64,000 nucleotides of DNA from the NCBI RefSeq assembly GCF_964204645.1, contig NC_134031.1, forward strand, positions 2,463,001-2,527,000, given 5' to 3'. The DNA is from Tubulanus polymorphus. Its lineage: Eukaryota > Nemertea > Palaeonemertea > Tubulaniformes > Tubulanidae. Below, in pieces: positions 2,153 through 19,317 of the stretch. The notes beneath the pieces were generated by a model, which made no database searches, was not told where the DNA came from, and saw only the letters and a list, made by a program, of their open reading frames with translations. The translations under genes were made by a program, and so were the position numbers. How positions within the stretch are numbered: the first letter of the stretch is position 1; every line of letters begins with the position of its first letter.

Positions 2153-3404
2153 GGGGTTAACTTTTTTTCTCTGCCTATTTTAATATCGAGATTTTGGATA
2201 TCTATATTACAAGGTTAACTTTTTTTCTGCCTATTTCAATATATCTAGATTTTGGGGATCTATATAACAAGGTTAATTTTTTTTTGCCTATTTGAATACA
2301 TCTGGATTTTGGATATCTATATTACAAGGATAATTCTTTTTTCTGCCTATTTGAATACATCTAGATTTTGAATATCTATATAACAAAGTTTATTTTTTTT
2401 CTGCCTATTTAAATACAACTGGATTTTGGATATCTATATTTATACAAGGATAATTCTTTTTTCTGCCTATTCCAATACATATAGATTTTGGATATCTATA
2501 TTACAAGGTTAACTTTTTTTCTGCCTATTTGAATACATCTAGATTTTGGATATCTATATTACAAGGTTAAATTTCTTTTCTACCTAATTTATTACATCGA
2601 GATTTTGGATATCTATATTACAAGGTTAACTTTCTTTTCTACCTAATTTATTACATCGAGATTTTGGAAATCTATATTACAAGGTTAACTTTTTTTCTGC
2701 CTATTTCAATACGTCTAGATTTTGGATATCTATATTACAAAGTTTTTTTTTTTCTGCCTATTTAAATACAACTGGATTTTGGATATCTATATTTATACAA
2801 GGATAATTCTTTTTTCTGCCTATTCCAATACATATAGATTTTGGATATCTATATTACAAGGTTAACTTTTTTTCCTGCCTAATTTATTACATCGAGATTT
2901 TGGATATCTATATTACAAGGTTAATTTTTCTTTCTGCCTATTTCAATACATCTAGATTTTGGATATCTATATTACAAGGTTAATTTTTTTTCTGCCTAAT
3001 TTATTACATCGAGATTTTGGATATCTATATTACAAGGTTAACTTTCTTTTCTGCCTAATTTATTACATCGAGATTTTGGATATCTATATTACAAGGTTAA
3101 TTTTTTTTCTGCCTGTTTCAATACATCTAGATTTTGGATATCTATATTACAAGGTTAATTTTTTTTCTGCCTAATTTATTACATCGAGATTTTGGTTATC
3201 TATATTACAAGGTTAATTTTTTTTTCTGCCTATTTCAATACATCTAGGTTTTGGATATCTATATTACAAGGTTAACTTTTTTTCTGCCTAATTTATACAT
3301 CGAGATTTTGGATATCTATATTACAAGGTTAAATTTTTTTCTGCCTTATTTATACATCGAGATTTTGGATATCTATATCACGAGGTTTACTTTTTTTCGT
3401 GCCT

Positions 3405-3640
3405 TGCTGCTCCTGAATAAGTGATTATAAGATGTGCATTGTCTGTGCTGCTCCTGAATAAGTGTTTATAAGATATGCATTGTCTGTGCTGCTCCTTAAT
3501 AAATGTTTATAAGATACGCATTGTCTGTGCTGCTCCTGAAAAAAATTGTTTATAAGATACGCATTGTCTGTGCTGCTCCTGAATAAGTGTTTATAAGATA
3601 CGCATTGTCTCAGCTGCTCCTGCTTAATTGTTTATACATC
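3405..3640 (+). repeat. 41-bp companion unit block 1
   Basis: About five to six tandem copies of the GCTGCTCCTGAATAAG unit, each with a TTTATAAGATACGCATTGTCT-like tail (core ATAAGATACGCATTGTCT). The block breaks the 58-bp array and starts a higher-order duplicated segment. Confidence 0.85.
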
Positions 3641-5760
3641 TGGACATCTGGTATATCTATATTACAAGGTTACCTTTTTTTCTGCCTATTTGAATACATT
3701 GAGATTTTGGATATCTATATTACAAGGTTTATTTTTTTTTCTGCCTATTTCAATACGTCTAGATTTTGGATATCTATATTACAAGGTTAATTTTTTTTTC
3801 TGCCTAATTTATTACATCGAGATTTTGGATATCTATGTTACAAGGTTAACTTTTTTTCTGCCTAATTTATACATCGAGATTTTGGATATCTATATTACAA
3901 GGTTAAATTTTTTTTTTCTGCCTATTTCAATACATCTAGATTTTGGATATCTATATTTATTACGAGGTTAATTTTTTTTCTGCCTAATTTATTACATCGA
4001 GATTTTGGATATCTATATTACAAGGTAAACTTTTTTTCTGCCTATTTCAATACATCTAGATTTTGGATATCTATATTACAAGGTTAATTTTTTTTTTCTG
4101 CCTAATTTATTACATCGAGATTTTGGATATCTATATTACAAGGTTAACTTTTTTTTCTGCCTATTTCAATACATCTAGATTTTGGATATCTATATTACAA
4201 GGTTAATTTTTTTTCTGCCTAATTTATTACATCGAGATTTTGGATTTCTATATTACAAGGTTAACTTTTTTTCTGCCTAATTTATACATCGAGATTTTGG
4301 ATATCTATATTACAAGGTTAATTTTTTTTTCTGCCTATTTCAATACATCTAGATTTTGGATATCTATATTACAAGGTTAATTTTTTTTCTGCCTATTTCA
4401 ATACATCTAGATTTTGGATATCTATATTACAAGGTTAATTTTTTTTTTCTGCCTAATTTATTACATCGAGATTTTGGATATCTATATTACAAGGTTAATT
4501 TTTTTTTCTGCCTATTTCAATACATCTAGATTTTGGATATCTATATTACAAGGTTAACTTTTTTTCTGCCTATTTCAATACATCTAGATTTTGGATATCT
4601 ATATTACAAGGTTAATTTTTTTTTCTGCCTAATTTATTACATCGAGATTTTGGATATCTATATTACAAGGTTTACTTTTTTTCTGCCTAATTTATACATT
4701 GAGATTTTGGATATCTATATTACAAGGTTAACTTTTTTTCTGCCTAATTTATACATCGAGATTTTGGATAGCTATATCACGAGGTTTACTTTTTTCATGC
4801 CTTGCTGCTCCTGAATAAGTGATTATAAGATGTGCATTGTCTGTGCTGCTCCTGAATAAGTGTTTATAAGATACACATTGTCTGTGCTGCTCCTGAATAA
4901 GTGTTTATAAGATACGCATTGTCTCAGCTGCTCCTGCTTAATTGTTTATACATCTGGATATCTGGTATATCTATATTACAAGGTTACCTTTTTTTCTGCC
5001 CATTTGAATACATTTGAGATTTTGGATATCTATATTACGAGGTTAATTTTTTTTTCTGCCTATTTCAATACATCGAGATTTTGGATATCTATATTACAAG
5101 GTTAACTTTTTTTTCTGCCTAATTTATTACATCTAGATTTTGGATATCTATATTGCTTTATAACTTTCCTTTCTGCCTATTTGAATACATCTAGATTTTG
5201 GATCTATATTACAATGTTAACTTCTTTTTTCGGCCTAATTTTATTACATCGAGATTTTGGATATCTATATTACAAGGTTAACTTTTTTTTCTGCCTTTTT
5301 GGATACGTCTAGATTTTGGATATCTATATTACAAGGTTAATTTTTTTTTCTACCTATTTCAATACATCTACATTTTGGATATCTATATTACAAGGTTAAC
5401 TTTCTTTTCTGCCTAATTTATTACATCGAGATTTTGGATATCTATATTACAAGGTTAATTTTTTTTCTGCCTGTTTCAATACAACTAGATTTTGGATATC
5501 TATATTACAAGGTTAATTTTTTTTCTGCCTAATTTATTACATCGAGATTTTGGATATCTATATTACAAGGTTAATTTTTTTTTCTGCCTATTTCAATACA
5601 TCTAGGTTTTGGATATCTATATTACAAGGTTAACTTTTTTTCTGCCTAATTTATACATCGAGATTTTGGATATCTATATTACAAGGTTAAATTTTTTTCT
5701 GCCTTATTTATACATCGAGATTTTGGATATCTATATCACGAGGTTTACTTTTTTTCGTGC

Positions 5761-6000
5761 CTTGCTGCTCCTGAATAAGTGATTATAAGATGTGCATTGT
5801 CTGTGCTGCTCCTGAATAAGTGTTTATAAGATATGCATTGTCTGTGCTGCTCCTTAATAAATGTTTATAAGATACGCATTGTCTGTGCTGCTCCTGAAAA
5901 AAATTGTTTATAAGATACGCATTGTCTGTGCTGCTCCTGAATAAGTGTTTATAAGATACGCATTGTCTCAGCTGCTCCTGCTTAATTGTTTATACATCTG
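5761..6000 (+). repeat. 41-bp companion unit block 3 (copy of block 1)
   Basis: It is essentially identical to the block at 3405-3640 with a 2358-bp shift, including the odd unit with AAAAAAATTG after GCTCCTG. This shows a recent segmental duplication inside the array. Confidence 0.85.
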
Positions 6001-9000
6001 GACATCTGGTATATCTATATTACAAGGTTACCTTTTTTTCTGCCTATTTGAATACATTGAGATTTTGGATATCTATATTACAAGGTTTATTTTTTTTTCT
6101 GCCTATTTCAATACGTCTAGATTTTGGATATCTATATTACAAGGTTAATTTTTTTTTTCTGCCTAATTTATTACATCGAGATTTTGGATATCTATGTTAC
6201 AAGGTTAACTTTTTTTCTGCCTAATTTATACATCGAGATTTTGGATATCTATATTACAAGGTTAAATTTTTTTTTCTGCCTATTTCAATACATCTAGATT
6301 TTGGATATCTATATTACAAGGTTAATTTTTTTTCTGCCTAATTTATTACATCGAGATTTTGGATATCTATATTACAAGGTAAACTTTTTTTCTGCCTATT
6401 TCAATACATCTAGATTTTGGATATCTATATTACAAGGTTAATTTTTTTTTTCTGCCTAATTTATTACATCGAGATTTTGGATTTCTATATTACAAGGTTA
6501 ACTTTTTTTCTGCCTAATTTATACATCGAGATTTTGGATATCTATATTACAAGGTAAACTTTTTTTCTGCCTATTTCAATACATCTAGATTTTGGATATC
6601 TATATTACAAGGTTAATTTTTTTTTTCTGCCTAATTTATTACATCGAGATTTTGGATATCTATATTACAAGGTTAACTTTTTTTTCTGCCTATTTCAATA
6701 CATCTAGATTTTGGATATCTATATTACAAGGTTAATTTTTTTTTTCTGCCTAATTTATTACATCGAGATTTTGGATATCTATATTACAAGGTTAACTTTT
6801 TTTTCTGCCTATTTCAATACATCTAGATTTTGGATATCTATATTACAAGGTTAATTTTTTTTCTGCCTAATTTATTACATCGAGATTTTGGATTTCTATA
6901 TTACAAGGTTAACTTTTTTTCTGCCTAATTTATACATCGAGATTTTGGATATCTATATTACAAGGTTAATTTTTTTTTCTGCCTATTTCAATACATCTAG
7001 ATTTTGGATATCTATATTACAAGGTTAACTTTTTTTCTGCCTATTTCAATACATCTAGATTTTGGATATCTATATTACAAGGTTAATTTTTTTTTTCTGC
7101 CAAATTTATTACATCGAGATTTTGGATATCTATATTACAAGGTTTACTTTTTTTCTGCCTAATTTATACATTGAGATTTTGGATATCTATATTACAAGGT
7201 TAACTTTTTTTTCTGCCTAATTTATACATCGAGATTTTGGATAGCTATATCATGAGGTTTACTTTTTTCATGCCTTGCTGCTCCTGAATAAGTGATTATA
7301 AGATGTGCATTGTCTGTGCTGCTCCTGAATAAGTGTTTATAAGATACGCATTGTCTCAGCTGCTCCTGCTAAATTGTTTATACATCTGGATATCTGGTAT
7401 ATCTACATTACAAGGTTACCTTTTTTTCTGCCCATTTGAATACATTTGAGATTTTGGATATCTATATTACAAGGTTAATTTTTTTTTCTGCCTATTTCAA
7501 TACATCGAGATTTTGGATATCTATATTACAAGGTTAACTTTTTTTTCTGCCTAATTTATTACATCTAGATTTTGGATATCTATATTGCTTTATAACTTTC
7601 CTTTCTGCCTATTTGAATACATCTAGATTTTGGATCTATATTACAATGTTAACTTCTTTTTTCGGCCTAATTTTATTACATCGAGATTTTGGATATCTAT
7701 ATTACAAGGTTAACTTTTTTTTCTGCCTTTTTGGATACGTCTAGATTATGGATATCTATATTACAAGGTTAATTTTTTTTTCTACCTATTTCAATACATC
7801 TAGATTTTGGATATCTATATTACAAGGTTAATTTTTTTTTCTGCCTATTTCAATACATCTAGATTTTGGATATCTATATTACAAGGTTAAATTTTTTTTC
7901 TGCCTAATTTATTACATCGAGATTTTGGATATCTATATTACAAGGTTAACTTTTCTTCTGCCTATTTCAATACATCTAGATTTTGGATATCTATATTACA
8001 AGGTTAATTTTTTTTTTCTGCCTAATTTATTACATCGAGATTTTGGATATCTATATTACAAGGTTAACTTTTTTTCTGCCTAATTTATACATCGAGATTT
8101 TTTGTATAGCTATATCACGAGGTTTACTTTTTTCATGCCTTGCTGCTCCTGAATAAGTGATTATAAGATGTGCATTGTCTGTGCTGCTCCTGAATAAGTG
8201 TTTATAAGATACACATTGTCTGTGCTGCTCCTGAATAAGTGTTTATAAGATACGCATTGTCTCAGCTGCTCCTGCTTAATTGTTTATACATCTGGATATC
8301 TGGTATATCTATATTACAAGGTTACCTTTTTTTCTGCCCATTTGAATACATTTGAGATTTTGGATATCTATATTACAAGGTTAATTTTTTTTTCTGCCTA
8401 TTTCAATACATCGAGATTTTGGATATCTATATTACAAGGTTAACTTTTTTTTCTGCCTAATTTATTACATCTAGATTTTGGATATCTATATTGCTTTATA
8501 ACTTTCTTTTCTGCCTATTTGAATACATCTAGATTTTGGATCTATATTACAATGTTAACTTCTTTTTTCGGCCTAATTTTATTACATCGAGATTTTGGAT
8601 ATCTATATTACAAGGTTAACTTTTTTTTCTGCCTTTTTGAATACGTCTAGATTTTGGATATCTATATTACAAGGTTAACTTTTTTCTGCCTATTTCAATT
8701 CATCGAGATTTAGACATAAGAAACTTTGAATCATTCCCACACCTTGATAAATCCAGAATTCAGCAAAGTCTTTTTAAAGATTCAATAAATCCTTCGCGCA
8801 AGAGCCAGAGTTACACTTCCTGTATTCTTTTAAAATCACACAATATTAATTTATACAATTGTCTTATCAACCCCTATGGTTTAGCTTTGAGCACTTTTGA
8901 GATGAAGATACTGAATTAATCTTCATCGTAGATACCTAATCAGTCATCTAATCTCCTCTATGATTTAAATTATCTGGGACAATATTTTATACGGGGCTTG

Positions 9001-10949: not shown

Positions 10950-11240
10950 AAAGAGAAGAGCAATGAAAACCTGGTACGGAACAAAAATAATGTCTTTACA
11001 GCTCTCCGTCGCCGGTCACATGCCGAGAACACCAGACAAAGAGCCAGCCAGGAATATACTGCCCTCTACACGCCCTCACACAGAACGCGAAAACCAGGAT
11101 GACAACGCCTCACATTCCCCATCTAACTGCAGGATGTACTGGGCGACGTCAGTAACTGACACACCTGTTAAATTGCACGAAACACAAATAGCGCAGTACA
11201 ACCAGCTTGACCGGGTTGAGATTCAGGATCTCAACTAGCA
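10950..11240 (+). pseudogene. Decayed non-LTR-retrotransposon-like 3' fragment, copy A
   Basis: The frame contains LQLSVAGHMPRTPDKEPARN, then a basic stretch. This resembles the (R)L.FAGH..R motif seen near the C-terminal end of many CR1/RTE-type non-LTR reverse transcriptases. A related fragment lies inverted about 500 bp downstream (11574-11790), and the two share about 150 bases at high similarity. No reverse transcriptase catalytic domain is visible, so this is at most a relic. The assignment rests on the motif only. Confidence 0.45.
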
Positions 11241-11500
11241 CCCAAAAGCGTGACAAGAGACTTCATCCACTGACCGAGGTTGTCACAAGGACACAATGAA
11301 ACTAGCACTCACAAGCCGACGAGAGACTTCATCCACTGACCGAGGTTGTCACAAGGACACAATGAAAACTAGCACTCAAACTAGAAATCAAAGAGCGTGA
11401 CAGTAGAATCATCCCTCAGCCGACTCAGAATACCAGAAACAAAGAGCGTGACAGTAGAATCATCCCTCATCCGGGCGGTCACAAGGACACAATGAATGCT
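11220..11500. repeat. Short tandem repeats between the inverted fragments
   Basis: Two copies of a unit of about 65 bp containing GAGACTTCATCCACTGACCG, followed by two copies of a unit containing AGAGCGTGACAGTAGAATCA. Both sit between the inverted retroelement-like fragments. Confidence 0.7.
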
Positions 11501-11573
11501 AGTAGCGTGACAATCCAGTATAACCGCTCCATTTGTATCCCGCGCAATCCCGCAAATATGCCCGTCATTGACA

Positions 11574-11790
11574 TCACTCAGCACACTTTGTAGATAGGTG
11601 GGGGCAGTGAGGCCTCGTCATCCTGGTTTTCGTGTTCCGTATGAGGGCGTGTAGAGGGCAGAATTTCCTGACCGACTCTTTGTCTGACATCCTCGACACG
11701 TTACCGGCAAAGGAGAGCTGACGCTTTCGGACATTAGTTTTGTTCCAGCAAACGTTGAAATTCGACAGAGAAATCGGCCCTGAAAAATAA
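11574..11790 (-). pseudogene. Decayed non-LTR-retrotransposon-like 3' fragment, copy B (inverted)
   Basis: On the minus strand the frame reads RKRQLSFAGNVSRMSDKESV and then a basic segment. It is homologous to copy A at 10950-11240 but in opposite orientation. The minus-strand open frame extends further upstream (to 12005) with a hydrophobic segment that I do not recognise. I treat that extension as chance. Confidence 0.45.
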
Positions 11791-13888: not shown

Positions 13889-16800
13889 ATGAATGAAGAA
13901 GTTGATAAGACGGAGGTCTCCGCCGAGCAAGGAGGCAGTGTTCGCAAACGCGTTGTGGAAAAAGAGGATTCGAAGGATACCGCTGCGCATTCTAAAGCCA
14001 ATGAAAAGGAAAAAGATGAGGCGTTGGATAAGAAAAATGATGATTCGGATGATGAAAAGGTCTTAGAACTGCAGTGAAGTCCGCTTAATTCGGATCATTT
14101 AGGACCAACAAAATTCATCCCGTTTACGGGAGATATGGATAAAACGTCATTTTCTCGCATATTAATGAACAAATCTGGACTGCAATGTCCAAATTAGACC
14201 AAAATACGGATTAAGCCAATCCGGATTAAGCGGTTAGACTGTATATTTAGTTTAGGAAGCCTAGATTTATGAGGTCGTTAAATGTGATATATGAATAAGG
14301 CTTTCAGTGTTAACTATCAGACTTTGACCCAATTTCAAAGTTCATTATATTTCCATATTCTATATAGCCTGTGCTATTGCTATCATGCATCGATTAGGAG
14401 AACTGAGCTGAGAGCTAGGATATCCAACTAAACTTGTTCTTATATCCAGGTTTTTTTATTTCAATAGGCATTACGTAGGTTTTCAGGGGCAAGTTAAAAT
14501 TAAGTTCATGTTCATAGAATCAGGGAATCAGGGAATTTCTGGTTAAGGGGTCAGGGAAATCAGGGAAATATCGTGGAGTTGTGAATTCCCTGATTTGTAC
14601 GAACCTTTAAGTTTTTAAGAATTATTTATTTTTTCAGGGTAAAAACGGCACCAATTCCACTAGTGGAGTATGGAATGCGCGTTGGCATAAAGGACTGATA
14701 TTCACATTAGCGTGCGTCGTATGTTCGAGTTCATTGATCGTTTACTTGATTTATAACTATTCGTCGATCGTCGCGCGGCACCGGAAAAACCCGTTGATGA
14801 TGTCGTGGAAAGATTTCGAAATGATCGATCTGCCGGCGGAAATGATAGCGAAAAGTAAAAATGTTAAAATTCACACGCGAACCGTGGATTTCAAGTTAGA
14901 TGGACAGGTAAATTTTGCTAGTTCAATACCCGGAGCAGACGCAGCCCTTGTGTTGCCGTGGTTTTGAGTTTGGAGACTTTGAAATTAATTCATGTTTCTT
15001 TTACTGAATATTCTGAATGAATCCCTGTCTTTCTCTATGAGAGTCAAGTAAAACCCTTAAATATGAAGAAAAATGTTCAAATACCATATAGGCCTATCTA
15101 AGCCCCTGTTTCATTTAGAAGACTGTTCATAAAGGATTCATACCCCTTTAGGTGTAATAGTTTGTTTTTTTTTCAGCCCAGCTTGAAAATCATATTTTAC
15201 TGGATGATAATGATCAACGATTCATGTTTTACAGGATGTGAAGACGTTCGTACGCGAACCTGAACAACAAGGCGATAAAACAGCGGTATTACTGTTGCAC
15301 GGCAACGCGTTCTCTTCGGAAAACTGGCAGAAAATCGGAACGATTCAACTGGTAGCGACTTTCGGTCATCGTGTGTTCGCCGTCGATGTTCCAGGTAGTA
15401 AGTTAGTTCATCATGTCTGACAAAATATCAATGGCACATCGGCCTAGTGTGACCATAATACGCATTGTTGTTTGTAGCAAGGAGCAATGCGGCATTGCAC
15501 TGCTTTACAATGCTGCAAAATATGACAAGTTGCTCTTTCAATGAGGATTCTACGTTTGACTGTGGCAATCAAGGATTCCACTTGTGGCAAGCGAGGAAGC
15601 ACTAGGTAGTTTGCTAGCGTGTTTTAGAATAATACCACGATTTCTCTTTCAATAGCGAATAATGAATTAAACTTGTGCTATACATGAACAGAATTTATCT
15701 AATTTCTGATATGGGCTAAAATCAATCTGCCCTGTTGATACACGCTATCTAGTGAGATAACCAACTGCACAGGGTCCTCATTGCTGGAAATAATATCACA
15801 TATCCATAAAAAAATGTATATCTATTTTCAGGTTATGGTAATTCCCCTGCCATCGGAAAATACGATAAAGGCTCATACGTGGAGAAATTGATCGAGGCTC
15901 TGGGTATAACCCGTCCAATATTGGTGGCGCCATCGATGGCCGGATCGTTCGCTATGCCTTTTATATTGAAGAGTCCTGAGAATGTACACTTAAAACTGAG
16001 TGGATTCGTACCTATAGCGATCGTAGGAACGGAATACAAAAAACATTTCTTCTATCAGAAAGTATTGGTAAGTATAAGTTGAAATAGGAAATAACGAAAA
16101 TTTGATGAGTAGAACTTTCATCCAACTAAATAATCAGTGATTACCTGATTCAGTTAGACAAGATATCAAAGTTCAAGAGCCATATGCCTCGAGTCCTCAA
16201 GATGTTTAGATTTTGAAAACCAGGCTCTTAAGTCCATTTTAATTCTATAGCCAATAGAATATGTTTTTATTATAGAAATTTAAGTGTTCATTGTATTAAA
16301 ATCTGAGACCAATTTTGGCCGGGGGGGCAGTTGCTCATAAGTTGGTTAAAGATAACTGGTGCTTTGCTAGTTGCCACTATGAGATATCTCCTTGTTAGCC
16401 TGTAGCTGAATGCCAAGACAATCTTACCAGTTACACCAACCAGAAACTAGATACTAGACTGATCTCGTAGTACTTTACCAGTTACCGCTATAGATGTACC
16501 ATGGATATGTATGGAATGATGTTATAAGTTGTCTCAGCTGAACTGTATGAGACACGAGTCTATTGTGCTATTGTACGTATTGTTATAGTAGGAAGACGGC
16601 ACCAGCTACAAACTGCTCATCAATTACAAGTTTTATTAAAGAAAATGACTCATCATTTACAAAGAATAATATCGAGGAGACACCTGTATCTTAGAGCCAG
16701 ATGTTTAACTATTATTGAATTTAAACCGTTCTTTATTAATATCGCATCAATTTTTGTTTGATACGTCGACTATAGCCGTGATCACATAAATATTCTACTC

Positions 16801-17406
16801 GAGTCAAATGTGGCCCACTTTCTCTCGTTACTAAACTGCTATCTAAACGATGCTGTGGCAAGAATGAGGCGAGTCACTTCCAGAACCAGTTAACATTCAC
16901 TAGCAGTAATTTGACCTGTACTAAAATTTGGGTACAGGCCTGGTCCGATGTTTTTGGTCGGGCCATAATTGGATCAGTTCAAGAATGCTTGTGTGATCGC
17001 GGCTTGATGATAATGATTATTAAAGGTACCATTTAATTAAAAGAAACCCACGATATCAATTCAAACATCTGTTTTTGTTATCGGCTAGAAGGATTTTACT
17101 CAAAATTAAAGAAAAAACAATAACAGTTGTTTTGAATTGATATTGTGGATTTCTGTTAATGATATTCATCAAGACTGTGAATAGTTTAAAAACATATTAC
17201 AGGTACCTACACTGATAGTGAGGGGATCACGAGATAAACATTTAGGCAAACTTTCGCAACGCAACTTAAAACATATGAGAAACAGTCGCGTTTTCGTCAT
17301 GAAAAACGCGCGACATTCGTGTTATTTGAATAAACCGTACGAATGGCATCGTCTGCTTCGTAGTTTCCTAGCGACTATTCAAAAACACGCGAATAAAATC
17401 AACTGA
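13889..17406 (+). CDS. ABHD14: ABHD14-like membrane-anchored alpha/beta hydrolase, isoform with last exon a
   Basis: Exons by phase and splice consensus: 13889-14059, 14638-14907, 15235-15394, 15832-16067, 17203-17406, giving 346 aa. The N-terminal about 57 residues are Lys/Glu/Asp-rich and the first donor (GTCTTA) is weak. Residues 76-98 form one hydrophobic segment, as in the type II membrane protein ABHD14A. The hydrolase domain starts near residue 148. LLLHGNAFSSENW (166-178) is the oxyanion-side strand-loop. PSMAG contains the nucleophile Ser235. GSRD gives acid Asp290, and NARHSCYL gives His317. The ending P.EWHRLL..F matches the family. Known relatives are serine hydrolases or lysine deacetylases (ABHD14B). 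The substrate here is unknown. The start is the ATG in exon 1, where the frame remains open upstream to a TTG. A candidate ATTAAA poly(A) signal lies at 17867. Confidence 0.88.
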
Positions 17407-18648
17407 TTCGTATTGTTGTAGTAAGGATTTGAATTTGGAAGTTTTGATTCTGTAGAAACCCTTCGTAGAACGCGGGCAGGGGCCTGTTTTATAGACCAAG
17501 GATTCCCCAGTCCCACAGTTCAGAGTTAACTGACTACTGAGAACTACTAAACTGAATCCAGTTTGTGAACAGGAACGATCCTCAGGTCAAATAACTCAAC
17601 TATCAAACTCAAAACTACTCCATATAAATGGCGCTAGATTTTGTCTTTTTGACAAAGTAGTAAATGTTAGCCTACCCCGACTAGGTGGTTTTGTGGTTTT
17701 TAGTAATGATCTTTCTTTTTTTTCACATCAAGTGAAATGTTATTCATCCTTTTCTTTATGATCTTATTTTCTTTTTACTTCTCTGCTTTGTACGTAGTGG
17801 GCATCCAGAAAATATTTTCCCCTTGAAAACACCTTTAAACTTCGTACCATCATCATTCTTATCTGCATTAAATTTCATATTACATGTTTAGAACGTTCTA
17901 AACTTAGTCCATTCCTATTTCAAAAGAACCAAGCGTTCACACCTGCAAAAGGTCTCTTCTAGATTGGGCCAAATTAGAACGTACTAACTAGTGATAGTGT
18001 GAGCGTGGCTTATAAATAGTGCGTGTACCAGGGTCGCCACTTACCATGAAATCAGGGAAAAAGTCTGGGAATTTCCTTTCCTTTCGAAAAAGCCAGGGAA
18101 TTTTGTAAAAAGAAAGAGCTAAAAATCAGGGAAAAGTCTGGGTAATACGTTGAGATTTCTAGATTGTGCGTATAATTAAACAGTTTCCATCTATGCTGTA
18201 CATATTTGACTGCTAATTGATTGTATTCTTTTAGCAGATCAAGTCAGGGAAAACAACATGCGTGTCAGGGAATAGTCAGGGAGAATAGTCAAATAAAAGT
18301 GGCCACCCTGATGTACATGTATGCATTTCAATGCTTTTAAGCGACATTGAAATATTAGGTTATCATTGAAATATTTCATGTTGGAAAAGGATCAAGAATT
18401 CAGGTATTTTGATGATTGTTCTGACGATTATTTTTTCATTATTTCAGGTACCGACGATGATCATACGAGGTGAGAACGACCATGACCTCGGTGAACAGTG
18501 TCAAGGTAACCTTCAAATGATGCCGCAACACGAGACGTTTGTCATAAAATCGGCCGGCCACGCGGCTTACATTGACGTCCCCGACGACTGGCATCGACTG
18601 CTTTTCAATTTCATGTTCGCGATCGAGAAACGGAAATTATCGACGTAA
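13889..18648 (+). CDS. ABHD14: ABHD14-like hydrolase, isoform with last exon b
   Basis: This uses the same first four exons as the other isoform but ends in 18448-18648, giving 345 aa. The alternative last exon starts in the same phase (0) with VPT after a good acceptor (TTATTTCAG). It is homologous to exon a: 28 of about 66 residues are identical by my hand alignment. It keeps the catalytic Asp (RGENDHDLG, Asp290), the His (SAGHAAY, His317) and the P..WHRLL..F ending. Because exon a ends in a stop codon, the two exons can only be alternatives, with exon b used when exon a is skipped. A poly(A) signal AATAAA lies at 19312. That exon b is expressed is inference. Its intact frame and catalytic residues argue against a pseudo-exon. 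Confidence 0.75.
16775..17003. mobile_element. MITE-like element, family GTGATCGCGGC, copy 1 (intronic)
   Basis: The ends are GCCGTGATCAC and GTGATCGCGGC, inverted relative to each other. The interior has GGCC/GGGCC-rich motifs and a TGCTGTGGCAAG.ATGAGGCGAGTCACTTCCAGAACC-type segment (key core GAGTCACTTCCAGAACC) shared in reverse with copies at 28455-28783 and 32900-33229. It sits in the last intron before exon a of the ABHD14-like gene. Confidence 0.6.
18029..18310. mobile_element. MITE-like element, TIR AGGGTSGCCACTT, copy 1 (intronic)
   Basis: The left end CAGGGTCGCCACTT and the right end AGTGGCCACCCTG are inverted repeats. The interior repeats short CAGGGAA motifs. A related copy is at 47637-47847, where TTTCCATCTATG and GCAGGTCAAGT-like blocks are shared. 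It lies between the two alternative last exons of the ABHD14-like gene. Confidence 0.65.
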
Positions 18649-19311: not shown

Positions 19312-19317
19312 AATAAA
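19312..19317 (+). terminator. Candidate poly(A) signal for the ABHD14-like gene
   Basis: AATAAA about 660 bases after the exon b stop codon, followed by T-rich sequence. It is the first AATAAA I found downstream on the + strand. Confidence 0.4.

Follow-up and report, generated by a model that had tools for sequence, protein, structure and literature searches.

A predicted hydrolase gene of the nemertean Tubulanus polymorphus contains a single nucleophile exon followed by two exons, A and B, each of which can close the reading frame. This raises the question of whether one gene can give rise to two enzymes that differ in their C-terminal part. The stretch of DNA analyzed, hereafter the window, comprises 64,000 nucleotides of contig NC_134031.1 (positions 2,463,001 to 2,527,000), and all coordinates refer to it. 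We consider it likely that the locus is one ABHD14-type, probably membrane-anchored hydrolase gene with two homologous alternative last exons.

The gene lies on the + strand, as do all features described below, and was modeled with five coding exons per form, giving proteins of 346 (A form) or 345 (B form) residues. The likely first coding exon (13889..14059) encodes a charged stretch of 57 residues in an open frame that continues in phase 0 into exon 2; its donor (gtctta) is poor, and it is the least certain of all the exons. Exon 2 (14638..14907, bordered by ttttttcag/GGT and CAG/gtaaat) is hydrophobic and probably encodes a membrane-anchor segment and the start of the hydrolase domain. The Kyte-Doolittle maximum over 19 residues was 2.45, centred at residue 86, a value that reflects hydropathy alone and a position that includes the uncertain exon 1. 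ABHD14A possesses a hydrophobic N-terminal single-pass anchor, and the segment at residue 86 recalls it. Exon 3 (15235..15394), placed by its splice sites and by alignment with human ABHD14B (structure 1imj), encodes the next strand and an HGN region, which we take to be the oxyanion region. Exon 4 (15832..16067) is the nucleophile exon, with Ser235 within P-S-M-A-G, and its donor (gtaagt at 16068) is common to both endings. Last exon A (17203..17406) encodes 67 residues and ends in its own TGA, and last exon B (18448..18648) encodes 66 residues and ends in its own TAA.

The assignment of the gene to the ABHD14 family, proposed in a first-pass annotation, was borne out by comparison with solved structures. 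Human ABHD14B was the best match for both forms, with 134 bits for the A form (E 5.8e-38, query residues 95-281) and 126 bits for the B form (E 1.3e-35). The runner-up was in either case archaeal Ta0194, with 63 and 58 bits, respectively. Pfam matches above the cut-offs were limited to the general models Abhydrolase_1 and Abhydrolase_6, both over the half common to the two forms, and NCBIfam gave 17 and 15 weak matches, every one below its cut-off. A search of the animal's own genome with Abhydrolase_1 returned 15 matches elsewhere, among which the ABHD14-type locus was absent; exon-by-exon family searches thus overlook such genes. Taken on its sequence, the gene encodes a predicted ABHD14-type serine hydrolase. 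Human ABHD14A and ABHD14B have the values 5 and 4 in a column that we took as exon counts (PMC5990648), and on that reading the five coding exons of each form agree with the number for ABHD14A. The table of a 2021 review lists no substrate for ABHD14A (PMC8389839).

Exons A and B were compared as a possible homologous pair. Re-reading of the sequence gave the same exon coordinates, AG acceptors and separate stops as the first-pass annotation. The common phase 0 after 16067 was likewise found (AAA GTA TTG/GTAAGT, with the frame continued by both exons), and the residue numbers of Asp290 and His317, carried by each exon, proved right. An ungapped alignment contained 28 identical residues of 66, as had been counted by hand, and both exons open with GTACC directly after the AG. 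The BLOSUM62 score of A against B was 151, far above the maximum of 43 (mean 21) in 2000 shuffles of B, and the resemblance is therefore above chance. When A was compared with the whole window by tblastn, B was found at E 3e-16 and the next best match at 0.02. In the own-genome search, A as query (limit 0.001) returned itself and B alone (B at E 4.9e-12), and B as query (limit 10) returned itself and A alone (A at E 4.3e-12). As terminal exons, the two are similar in sequence, share phase 0, encode 67 and 66 residues and are arranged in tandem 1041 bases apart. Neither A nor B contained a stop within the frame, a frameshift or a lost triad residue. Homology, matching phase and separate stops thus uphold the earlier claim of duplicated last exons, as far as the DNA sequence can tell.

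Ser235, Asp290 and His317 occur in triad order in both forms, and a Ser-Asp-His triad like the one predicted here is stated for ABHD14B (PMC9270251). The aspartate and the histidine were kept in all 20 rows of an alignment composed of the A form, the B form, 1imj, 3bdi and 16 archaeal loci (L001 and L002 being the same place), the archaeal loci being the 15 top-ranked of the matches found in 50 of 292 genomes. Among the 18 homologous rows (17 distinct), the catalytic histidine was preceded by G in 11 and by one of Q, T, N or D in the remaining 7. B has G at this site, and A has Arg, which occurred in none of the 18 homologous rows. The human ABHD14B motif CYLDKPEEWH is nearly retained in A (CYLNKPYEWH) and altered in B (AYIDVPDDWH). 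Since A nearly keeps this motif and B keeps the G before the histidine, each predicted exon retains family features that the other has lost. One might suppose that both endings are spliced but that one of the two forms lacks hydrolase function, for example A with its Arg before His317 or the more derived B, and serves as a decoy or regulator. The Arg of A, unlike the residue in all 18 homologous rows, speaks for such a role, but both forms have the Ser, Asp and His of the triad, and several residues are tolerated before the histidine among the homologues. We hold a decoy to be unlikely; it overlaps with the reading of one gene with two last exons, which is itself certain of no function.

Wider scans with the A form gave little. 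Pattern scans returned 60 stretches of prokaryote contigs and 71 stretches of viral contigs, with no relative among them, an alignment scan gave one archaeal locus, and a plasmid scan gave distant matches (70 records, 30 among the matches listed).

The claim that the two endings share the upstream half of the protein was examined in the assembly (267.8 Mb in 77 contigs) with exons 2-4 and A as queries. Exons 2-4 were each found once and the last exon twice, as A and as B, which agrees with one set of exons 2-4 serving both endings in the predicted gene. Tandem duplicates of whole genes are known to give rise to spurious mutually exclusive exons (PMC3923563), and B could by analogy be the remnant of such a duplicate and belong to another transcript. 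A permissive tblastn on the window, however, did not detect exons 2-4 in the interval from A to B, and the assembly searches with exons 2-4 and the last exons showed no other partner for B. The gap of 1041 bases between A and B and the retention of acceptor, phase and frame by B argue against this origin as well. Since neither search turned up exons 2-4 a second time, we regard a tandem gene duplicate as very improbable. Because the frame of B is conserved and no other upstream exons were found for it, joining of B to 16067 makes the most sense. This is the sole ABHD14-type locus seen, which is no proof of a single copy, as gaps in the assembly could hide another.

The age of the exon pair was estimated from its divergence. 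Over 62 codons, A and B differed at 31 first, 16 second and 43 third codon positions, and the proportions of synonymous and nonsynonymous differences were 0.86 (saturated) and 0.38, respectively. Comparison of two stretches around A and B by blastn showed no convincing homology outside the coding parts. Besides the trivial overlap of these stretches, the top rows were a self-match of an 18-nt palindrome in the A-B intron and a match of 20 nt within the two exons; the other rows had E values of 0.45 or more, one of them being a match of 22 nt that spans both acceptors. Judged from the saturated synonymous sites, the pN value and the lack of convincing intron homology, the duplication is old. 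Neutral drift of one copy was simulated with the other copy fixed and indels absent, and at none of eight settings did any of 3000 runs give the observed combination, namely the identity, an open frame, retention of Asp and His, and the change at third positions. In sequence terms, protein-level constraint has evidently acted on the pair over a long period. At 0.3 substitutions per site, an open frame together with at least the observed identity was obtained in 348 (A) and 582 (B) of 3000 runs, so that recent disuse of one exon is compatible with these figures. The pattern of constraint describes the past, and one exon may have lost its use recently.

As to which copy is derived, A shared 28 and B 19 of 58 aligned residues with human ABHD14B. 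At sites where the human protein agrees with just one of the exons, it agreed with A at 13 and with B at 4 (two-sided binomial p about 0.05). A tree built from 11 hand-picked rows of the 20 aligned (64 columns) showed A and B as sisters with support of 85/86, and the branch of B was longer (0.74 vs 0.40 for A). The duplication probably postdates the divergence from the human ABHD14B lineage, a tentative dating from a comparison with one other animal sequence. From the same comparison, and because A is nearer to human ABHD14B (28/58 vs 19/58), we tentatively take B as probably the derived copy.

The first-pass annotation had credited both last exons with a good acceptor. This holds for B, with 14 pyrimidines in 17 positions, but not for A, which has 7 of 17; at least as many were found at 76.9% of 355 AGs between 13000 and 19000. 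An AATAAA within the last codons of A (17392..17397), starting 12 nt before the stop, is a possible poly(A) signal, the chance expectation being about 0.06 per 60 nt of window. Another at 19312..19317, about 660 nt past the stop of B, is a likely distal signal. A weak proximal and a strong distal last exon are a usual layout for regulated last-exon choice.

Just 5' of the acceptor of A lies a MITE-like dispersed inverted repeat (17031..17165, right edge not fixed) with 35-nt arms that are 86% complementary, the end of an arm being 37 nt from exon A. With 40 of 99 candidates scored, at least 57 match rows were obtained for it in the own genome, two of them at the locus itself, and since the matches reach the end of the query, the element may extend nearer to exon A. 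The region 17000-17230 had a folding z of -5.6. A hairpin acting as a regulatory structure was considered on account of this strong fold and set aside, as the element has many copies in the genome and a mobile-element remnant suffices to explain it. Other repeats were noted in the window as well. Short repeats with the core tcagggaaaa occupy 18046-18253 in the A-B intron, and similar ones were seen by eye near 14520-14570. Long minisatellite arrays with a unit of 58-59 bases extend over 2155-8711, with short arrays of a 41-base unit interspersed among them. At 10999-11720 lies an imperfect inverted repeat, possibly a fold-back element, whose arms measure about 200 bases and are 74% complementary over 142 nt and 79% over 56 nt.

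The dispersed inverted repeat may have weakened the acceptor of A, and with a weak polypyrimidine tract and this element adjoining, exon A may now see little use. This leads to the idea that only one last exon is in use today, either B working with A fading or A working with B rarely used. The first version draws on the acceptor of A and the neighboring repeat; the faster change of B, with human ABHD14B siding with A at 13 sites against 4, also speaks for use of one ending. Yet both exons are free of stops, frameshifts and triad losses, and the protein-level constraint on the pair is strong. Use of a single ending therefore appears rather unlikely to us, and we retain the reading of one gene with two alternative last exons.

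Long-range RNA pairing was evaluated as a possible switch between the endings. Pairing of the start of the intron after exon 4 with the A-B intron, the region before A and the region before B was equaled in 2, 1 and 0 of 100 shuffles, respectively. The pairing with the region before B, with a candidate helix of 16111-16155 and 18345-18394, was beaten by 1 of 211 window stretches and, in a local test, by 1 of 30. A second match to either helix-arm region was not found in the own-genome search. In a stricter local test with 120 controls per comparison, 4 of the random targets and 12 of the random donors were as good for the region before B, and 30 of 120 were as good for the region before A. Suggestive at first, the pairing was weaker under these stricter controls and was not counted as evidence. 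Tandem terminal exons and competing RNA structures have been described, and the 3' variable regions of Drosophila PGRP-LC are selected via competing RNA pairing (PMC9013439). As described there, PGRP-LC resembles the present case in being a single gene with 3'-terminal alternatives and differs from it in the competing pairing, no convincing long-range pairing having been found here.

In the favored model of one gene with two last exons, exons 1-4 would supply the anchor, the oxyanion region and the nucleophile Ser235. If 16067 is joined to A and the transcript is polyadenylated early, one C-terminal fifth with Asp290 and His317 would result; joining of 16067 to B and late polyadenylation would give an alternative C-terminal fifth with the same two residues. 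We infer that both junctions (16067/17203 and 16067/18448) are made. Our guess is that substrate, partner or regulation is not the same for the A form and the B form. The more specific proposal of the first-pass annotation, two membrane-anchored hydrolases with one nucleophile in which the acid/His part and the surrounding walls are swapped by splicing so that the substrate or partner is changed, is possible but somewhat doubtful.

Homologous 3'-terminal exons are already catalogued as a class. The Kassiopeia predictions comprise 34 cases in C. elegans and 41 in A. thaliana, and the choice between such exons is supposed there to depend on multiple poly(A) sites (PMC3923563). By its general class criteria, these cases share with A and B a matching phase, similar length, sequence similarity and a position as neighbors in one gene (PMC3923563); the piece swapped here contains two members of a serine hydrolase's catalytic triad. 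A survey of human exons handles terminal candidates separately (PMC5740500). In mammals, the retained introns recorded for human lung cancer include ABHD14A events (PMC7693837) and exon skipping is reported for Abhd14b (PMC7139363), events which, as described in these sources, differ from the two homologous last exons found here. No report of homologous alternative last exons for ABHD14, and nothing related on mutually exclusive exons carrying a hydrolase catalytic triad, was found in the open-access literature searched.

The locus offers a clear example of duplicated terminal exons, old and constrained, that involve an active site. Natural variation in the acid/His part, set against an unchanged nucleophile part, would amount to an experiment already in place on what the acid/His part contributes to specificity in the family.
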